A DNA stretch of 12,547 bases from assembly GCA_015222855.1 (NCBI GenBank), contig JADFWA010000241.1, positions 1 through 12,547 of the forward strand. The letters run 5' to 3'. Below, piece by piece: positions 1,065-1,181 of the stretch (position 1 is the stretch's first letter; every line of letters starts with the position of its first letter). This DNA comes from Pseudomonadota bacterium (GTDB lineage: Bacteria > Desulfobacterota > Syntrophia > Syntrophales > JADFWA01). The notes under the pieces were generated by a model. That model did no database searches. It saw only the letters and a list, made by a program, of their open reading frames with translations, and had not been told where the DNA came from. The position numbers were made by a program, and so were the translations under genes.

Positions 1065-1080
1065 GCCCACAATCTATTGA

Positions 1081-1110
1081 CCGCTTGGATCCGGTTTCGG
1101 ACTGAGACGG
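1081..1110 (+). promoter_or_regulatory. pan-type RNA motif (candidate riboswitch aptamer) upstream of panC
   Basis: The transcript folds into a 12-bp hairpin: CCG/CGG at the base, a bulged A1107, then C1084-G1106, U1085-A1105, two adjacent G.U pairs (1086/1104 and 1087/1103), G1088-C1102, a bulged A1089, then UCCG/CGGA closed by a GUUU loop. A stem with two bulged adenines, one on each strand, upstream of pantothenate genes is the hallmark of the pan RNA motif, known from Firmicutes, Chloroflexi and Deltaproteobacteria; its ligand is not known to me. Published pan RNAs are often tandem; only one is seen here. The 3' strand (1104-1115) can alternatively pair with 1151-1162, 11 of 12 positions counting one G.U, which would break the terminator at 1149-1181. 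The inferred logic is that a folded motif permits termination and an unfolded one permits panC expression. Confidence 0.72.
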
Positions 1111-1148
1111 AAGGCAGAAAGTTTTTGTTTATTGAGATATTGAATCTT

Positions 1149-1181
1149 AAGCCTCCCGTCTTGCGCGGTGAGGCTTTTTTT
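1149..1181 (+). terminator. intrinsic terminator in the panC leader (attenuator)
   Basis: The stem pairs AAGCCTC (1149-1155) with GAGGCTT (1170-1176) and continues CCG/CGG (1156-1158 with 1166-1168) past one bulged T1169. The loop is 7 bases, and the T-run covers 1175-1181. It ends only 16 bases before the panC ATG, so it can scarcely be just the end of rsmA: it must either attenuate panC or be bypassed. The segment 1151-1162 is also the partner of the antiterminator strand 1104-1115. Confidence 0.85.

Follow-up and report, generated by a model that had tools for sequence, protein, structure and literature searches.

We found that the panC-panD genes in a 12,547-nucleotide stretch of DNA (the window, meaning the whole stretch analyzed) are preceded by a single-stem pan RNA and an intrinsic terminator. 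This leader is probably a pan-family transcription attenuator that is OFF when the pan hairpin is formed. Comparison of related sequences supports the hairpin, the terminator, and the mutually exclusive pairing predicted to connect them; where transcription starts, which state is OFF or ON, and that the signal is an end product are inferred. The pan hairpin appears to decide whether copying of panC-panD stops early, here and in many other bacteria.

The pan family itself is not new: its RNAs have been known since 2010 (Weinberg et al. 2010, PMC2864571), and the literature, in the portions accessible to us, treats pan as a motif, an Rfam annotation, or part of an operon listing. We found no pan ligand, binding protein, or mechanism in the open literature; earlier notes on terminators may exist in subscription papers or in the 2010 supplements. 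To this, our analysis adds a single-stem attenuator form, its presence across an order, additional taxonomic groups and target genes, and evidence for the switch. The promoter, sensor stem, and terminator fit into roughly 150 bases, and natural variants are plentiful, some of them compensated, which makes the mechanism directly testable.

The panC-panD leader and its single pan stem

All features of the locus are on the forward strand. The upstream gene is rsmA/ksgA (188 to 1039; NCBIfam TIGR00755, 258.6 bits, cut-off 171). Downstream are panC, encoding pantoate-beta-alanine ligase (1198 to 2055, with its ATG at 1198; TIGR00018, 331.5 bits, cut-off 212.75), and panD, encoding aspartate 1-decarboxylase (2121 to 2471; TIGR00223, 153.2 bits, cut-off 106). 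The predicted promoter (1036 to 1064) consists of TTGACA at 1036 to 1041, a 17-nt spacer ending in TGT, and a −10-like TAGAAA at 1059 to 1064; the rsmA stop codon overlaps its −35 box. Read this way, the sequence places the start of transcription near 1071, approximately 10 nt 5' of the pan stem. The output of a generic promoter scan did not include this promoter. TTGAC occurs within 75 nt 5' of the pan core in 66 of 70 panC leaders (reversed word, 1 of 70) and 20 of 25 DUF2520 leaders (reversed word, 0), and in 13 of 80 panB leaders (reversed word, 4); many panB-linked copies lie behind an upstream gene and overlap it.

The pan stem spans 1081 to 1110, with bulged A1089 and A1107, tandem G.U pairs (G1087.U1103 and U1086.G1104), and a loop at 1094 to 1097. 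A first-pass annotation of the window had proposed this stem, and we recovered it as the minimum-energy fold of positions 1079 to 1116 (−14.0 kcal/mol). That annotation had also named a search with the Rfam pan model (RF01749) as a check. With cmscan, the window contains no match to any Rfam family at the gathering cut-off; at a lax threshold, pan was the best family and the only one with E < 0.1 (E = 0.0023), scoring 29.8 bits against the gathering score of 36.2, and its E value against the whole 1.9-Mb genome was 0.003. Eight other lax Rfam matches in the window looked like chance and were set aside.

The shortfall is general. Although 57 of 60 genomes of the order match RF01749 at a very lax threshold (E ≤ 10), only 2 of the 60 reach the cut-off, as do 2 of 17 core-bearing loci from diverse groups, both from Bacillota. 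At its cut-off, the two-stem Rfam model therefore misses most pan loci in the samples tested. Because scores below the cut-off are common across pan loci, we regard them as a property of that model rather than of this locus and do not count the score as grounds for exclusion from the family; membership rests instead on comparative evidence. The model aligned its first stem onto the promoter region of the window, ahead of the predicted start, where it would not be transcribed, and the short distance from that start to the stem leaves no space for a tandem first stem. Judged by promoter position, the window copy is thus single-stem and lacks the tandem arrangement of most but not all family members. 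It does have the stem with two conserved bulged adenines and the location upstream of panB, panC, or panD that mark the family. Pan membership, the single-stem form, and the panC-panD context all recur in relatives, which bears out the first-pass assignment.

Our alignment of the panC class comprises 54 leaders; 13 exact duplicates were omitted, as were 16 identifiers excluded by hand on sight of the leaders. In this alignment, 95.1% of pan-stem cells are paired, compared with at most 46.8% in slid registers. Cells changed on both sides numbered 26, compared with 7.1 in shuffled alignments, and the covariation score was 0.152, compared with 0.095 (0 of 500 shuffles as high for either of these or for the paired cells). 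Neither the number of pairs changed on both sides (388 of 500) nor the number of further pair types (34 of 500) was outstanding against shuffles, so three of the five measures indicate covariation of the stem. Compensation is seen, for example, at the fifth pair (U-A/C-G) and at the outer pair (C-G/U-A/A-U).

Distribution and targets of the pan core

We searched for the core pattern GCTTGGATCCN{3,14}GGACYGRGAC, which tends to favor single stems. Of the 155 genomes of the order, 130 contain it, and none contains the reversed pattern. Among the 25 core-negative genomes, 18 had no PanC match at E ≤ 1e-15, several of these being incomplete. Of the seven that did have PanC, four (L181 to L184) carry a variant pan stem directly upstream, two (L185 and L186) have a different leader with a terminator, and one (L187) has neither. 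The L185 and L186 leaders combine a promoter, a terminator, and a shared sequence, GCAGGCCCGGACAAAACTGGAC...ATACG, with no pan stem; the shared sequence is possibly a replacement regulator.

In a sample of the phylum, the core was found in 113 of 395 genomes. A set of 150 loci gave 148 core matches, representing 147 distinct places. The first pantothenate-linked gene lies within 2.5 kb downstream in 135 of the 148 (panB in 67, panC in 41, DUF2520 in 24, and panD in 3), and panB, panC, or panD is the first such gene in 111. Pfam searches of 143 downstream frames agree, with PF02548 in 64, PF02569 in 43, PF10728 in 23, and PF02261 in 3. Among the matches listed, those linked to pan genes carry the labels Deltaproteobacteria/Thermodesulfobacteriota, Nitrospinota, Acidobacteriota, Bacillota, Chloroflexi, Binatia, Myxococcales/Polyangium, and Dadabacteria, at least eight phylum-level labels in all; these labels come from the titles of records that are mainly metagenome bins, where binning errors may occur. 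When plasmids were searched with the pan core of Mesobacillus, one match came up, on a Priestia plasmid.

The pan regulon points to new pantoate-pathway genes. The DUF2520 gene under pan control (24 loci, including L007, L030, and L031) is a candidate ketopantoate reductase; it is a Rossmann/DUF2520 gene followed by panB in 22 of the 24. We considered the name PanG for its product and dropped it, since YkpB of Bacillus subtilis has been termed PanG and falls in the same ortholog cluster as PanE (PMC11487621, in the part available to us); NCBIfam gives no family above cut-off for the DUF2520 protein.

Thirteen of the 148 core matches had no match to a pantothenate seed gene. Three of these (L039, L045, and L131) precede hxlB. 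We judged four core matches (L044, L066, L081, and L130) to be chance; at L080, L128, and L139 the downstream stretch ends too early to show a target, and L116 and L125 have no pantothenate seed gene within the available stretch. At L053 (5422 to 6009), a pan stem and matching terminator are followed by a first long frame for a BioY/ECF substrate-binding component, possibly serving uptake of pantothenate or a precursor; a second promoter-like stretch lies between the stem and this gene.

Most pan RNAs were reported to be tandem, which implies that single ones exist, and a dimeric protein-binding motif was suggested from the tandem form (Weinberg et al. 2010, PMC2864571, in the part available to us); Bacillus subtilis is among the bacteria reported to carry a pan RNA. 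A second stem of matching sequence type is absent from all 196 pan-gene-linked loci (178 distinct), a count that reflects a core pattern favoring single stems. A divergent first stem was found by pattern at two of the 196 (L058 and L077). The hairpin before the core at these loci, and by eye at L004, reads GGGC(A/G)GUAUC...GAACUGCACC, with bulged adenines at the same places and other base pairs; the tandem RNA at L004 precedes a gene that reads as panB. The wide use of single stems weakens the argument for a dimeric binding motif.

Pairing between the pan stem and the terminator

The intrinsic terminator (1149 to 1181) comprises a hairpin at 1149 to 1176 and a tract of seven U at 1175 to 1181; positions 1147 to 1178 fold at −16.3 kcal/mol, and the U-tract ends 16 bases before the panC ATG, as the first-pass annotation had reported. 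The predicted antiterminator 5' arm (1104 to 1115) consists of the pan-stem 3' strand plus its flank, with GGAAGGC at 1109 to 1115, and its 3' arm (1151 to 1162) is the 5' arm of the terminator. Folding upheld the proposed pairing at 11 of 12 positions, with standard pairs throughout and a single mismatch, A1111.C1155. If the RNA is cut before the terminator 3' arm (1071 to 1163), its minimum-energy fold is the antiterminator (−24.7 kcal/mol); the whole leader (1071 to 1181) folds into the pan stem plus terminator at −35.9 kcal/mol, compared with −31.7 kcal/mol with the antiterminator forced. Predicted folding and comparison give one mark of a transcription attenuator, two exclusive folds of which one contains an intrinsic terminator. 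The first-pass annotation had called this the layout of a transcriptional riboswitch. The exclusive folds stand and recur in relatives; the word riboswitch goes beyond the evidence, since a protein is just as possible an effector for such an attenuator.

Between stem and gene, 116 of 135 loci have a terminator-like hairpin, including all 41 of the panC class; none was detected in the other 19. The covariation score of the terminator hairpin was 0.262, compared with 0.225 in shuffles (0 of 500 as high). We then compared the duplex energy of each locus's pan 3' strand and flank with its own terminator 5' arm against that with the arms of other loci, a swap test that is free of any register. The wide set retained 154 of 212 matches after dropping 16 without a pan gene, 23 without a terminator, 18 duplicates, and 1 in which the elements were too close. 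Own duplexes averaged −13.67, compared with −12.07 for swapped ones (z −8.9, 0 of 20,000 permutations as good), and a reversed-arm control for composition gave z −3.0; because related sequences are not independent, none of the z values here are to be read as probabilities. By class, z was −7.3 for panB (control −2.1), −4.2 for panC (control −1.1), and −3.4 for DUF2520 (control −2.6), the last indicating little beyond composition. The panC test was not significant on the first 40 loci (z −1.0) and became so only with the wider set of 67.

Flank-only swaps were not significant (z −1.4), and an anchored flank test was weak overall (z 1.6; DUF2520, 3.8; panB, 1.8; panC, −0.9). In 110 of 154 loci, the terminator 5' arm was in the top 5% of equally long segments from its own locus, and in 66 it ranked first. 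In the 54 panC-class leaders, 79.3% of antiterminator cells are paired, compared with at most 54.2% in slid registers; covariation in these columns is not above shuffles (430 of 500 as high), so pairing in this class is mostly conserved sequence rather than covarying. The antiterminator arms in the window are supported by their pairing and the swap test, the 5' arm also by the ranking within each locus. A crude energy comparison preferred the pan stem, with the antiterminator better in 5 of 41 panC, 1 of 20 DUF2520, and 2 of 51 panB loci, and is biased because its constraint blocked the whole pan 5' strand. A MAFFT alignment of panB and DUF2520 terminators chose the U-tract as the best register and was discarded.

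Compensated three-way changes, involving both strands of the pan stem and the terminator arm, were found in at least three lineages. At L003, L175, L176, L177, L179, and L180, the outer pan pair changes from C-G to U-A (..UCGCUUGG/..GACGAAAGG) together with a terminator arm of CCUUUCG; these loci are all from one genus and may represent a single event. Separate cases are L246, in which a CUGCC/GACAGAGGG pan stem accompanies terminator CCUUCUGUC (−16.5), and the tandem L004, in which CAGGGUAG accompanies CUAUCCUG (−13.4). At L019 the outer pan pair is changed and the terminator is not; at L013, L019, and L115, complementarity to the retained terminator is weak. The compensatory changes that the first-pass annotation expected in relatives are thus present for the bulged stem, and for the antiterminator in some lineages but not, against shuffles, in the panC class to which the window belongs.

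Leader ends were also folded for 18 loci, most of them lacking a terminator. In several of them (for example, L094, L095, and L107), the likely ribosome site lies inside a hairpin, and at L111 the pan 3' strand continues into GGAGGU six bases before a likely ATG; other loci of the 18 had neither arrangement. At loci of these types, a formed pan hairpin would likewise lower expression.

Pan RNAs in genomes without a PanB match

A pan RNA lies directly upstream of hxlB-hxlA/rraA at eight loci (L045:2704-5587, L131:4147-7348, L039, L204, L253, L254, L256, and L259), and panE comes next in L045 and L131, the two that are long enough to show it. Four genomes, G194, G229, G286, and G534 (the last from a chromosome record, CP070843.1), have a pan stem ahead of hxlB and an HxlA/RraA fusion; in G155, a pan stem precedes panC, and none was seen before hxlB. 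No PanB (PF02548) was detected in any of these five genomes (completeness 85 to 95% where given), and PanC was found in all four of G155, G194, G229, and G286. The pan RNA before hxlB-hxlA/rraA in four genomes without a PanB match suggests a PanB-independent route to pantoate: HxlB and HxlA would release formaldehyde, and an RraA-like aldolase would join it to 2-ketoisovalerate, replacing PanB. A literature search over the sources accessible to us listed no report of such a replacement.

Proposed mechanism and alternative explanations

Under the attenuator model, transcription would begin just 5' of the pan hairpin, and an effector reporting enough pantothenate or CoA-pathway compound would stabilize the hairpin, directly or via a protein. 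While the hairpin holds, its 3' strand would be masked, the terminator at 1149 to 1176 would form, and panCD would be OFF. When the hairpin opens, 1104 to 1115 would pair with the terminator 5' arm and block the terminator, leaving panCD ON, such that the pan hairpin would act as an anti-antiterminator. Since the targets identified are nearly all genes for making pantothenate, the expected signal is a sufficiency of pantothenate or CoA.

This order of elements and OFF logic is that of the PyrR-controlled pyr attenuators, in which a bulged hairpin acts as anti-antiterminator, followed by an antiterminator and a terminator, with the end product switching expression off. The likeness drawn is one of layout, and a binding protein is known for pyr but not for pan. 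Transcriptional riboswitches with terminator platforms likewise have a sensor fold and an antiterminator that share one strand and exclude each other; the pan sensor differs in being one short hairpin. Compared with the published pan motif (RF01749; Weinberg et al. 2010, PMC2864571, in the part available to us), the window copy shares the stem with two bulged adenines, matches the consensus of the second stem, and occupies the same kind of site, upstream of panB, panC, or aspartate decarboxylase genes. It differs in its single stem, the predicted promoter directly upstream, the explicit attenuator, and its score below the gathering value, and the copies in relatives extend to DUF2520-panB and, in genomes without a PanB match, to hxlB-hxlA/rraA.

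Two readings keep the same switch and differ in the effector. There is close to an even chance that a protein binds the pan hairpin as a PyrR-like anti-antiterminator. A small, simple stem with two bulged adenines would suit a protein, and one hairpin of some 30 nt would make an unusually small aptamer for a metabolite. For the tandem form, protein binding has already been suggested (Weinberg et al. 2010, PMC2864571, in the part available to us), yet tandem copies appear dispensable given the stem counts above. Some genomes that carry pan RNAs have no PanB match, which excludes PanB, among the enzymes of the pathway, as the general binder. Direct binding of pantothenate, a CoA precursor, or CoA to the single hairpin, as in a metabolite riboswitch, we rate somewhat below even. 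This would fit the conserved bulges and high conservation across the phylum-level labels, a conservation partly built in by a search pattern that fixed much of the core, as well as the attenuator or ribosome-site platforms and the 135 of 148 matches before pantothenate-linked genes. Against it are the compact size and two reviews stating, in the parts available to us, that a CoA riboswitch is not known. A bolder version, which we consider improbable, is that the hairpin alone serves as a minimal aptamer, with pantothenate or a CoA-pathway compound as its ligand, and that its regulon exposes a PanB-independent ketopantoate route through HxlB, an HxlA/RraA aldolase, and PanE; if true, this would place the hairpin with the smallest riboswitches found in nature and bring the missing CoA-branch riboswitch a step closer.

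The other two readings change the switch itself. A bulged stem ahead of a terminator resembles the RAT sites bound by BglG-type proteins, in which case the pan stem would be an antiterminator whose formation means ON. RAT stems, however, overlap the terminator 5' arm, and the pan stem ends at 1110 with the terminator beginning at 1149; the overlapping pairing is the alternative one, which makes this reading very unlikely. Slightly less likely still, in our estimate, is that the terminator simply serves rsmA and its complementarity to the pan stem is coincidental. The gene ends at 1039, and our scan placed only one terminator-like site on the forward strand between 900 and 1300, the one ahead of panC. 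A like pairing nevertheless recurs ahead of panB and DUF2520 genes, and own pairing beats swapped partners overall and among panB loci, so this reading was already disfavored.

Coding overlap and stem variants

Counting repeats, 51 of the 196 pan-linked loci have an upstream frame of 100 amino acids or more that ends inside the pan stem (for example, L094:3617-4261, L036:2289-2936, and L050:4007-4645). The tail P-L-G-S, encoded by the pan 5' strand (CCGCUUGGAUCC), is present in 49 of these 51, and all eight scanned frames of this kind are deoxynucleoside kinases (PF01712). Of 30 loci of this kinase family drawn independently, 11 had the PLGS tail; 4 of these had the strict pan core, and most of the others had a pan-like hairpin by eye. 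As read from these sequences, the RNA element sets the C-terminus of the predicted protein at kinase-linked pan loci. Four kinase-linked loci (L222, L226, L230, and L236) carry CCGCUGGGAUCC, in which one tandem G.U pair is replaced by G.G or G.A.
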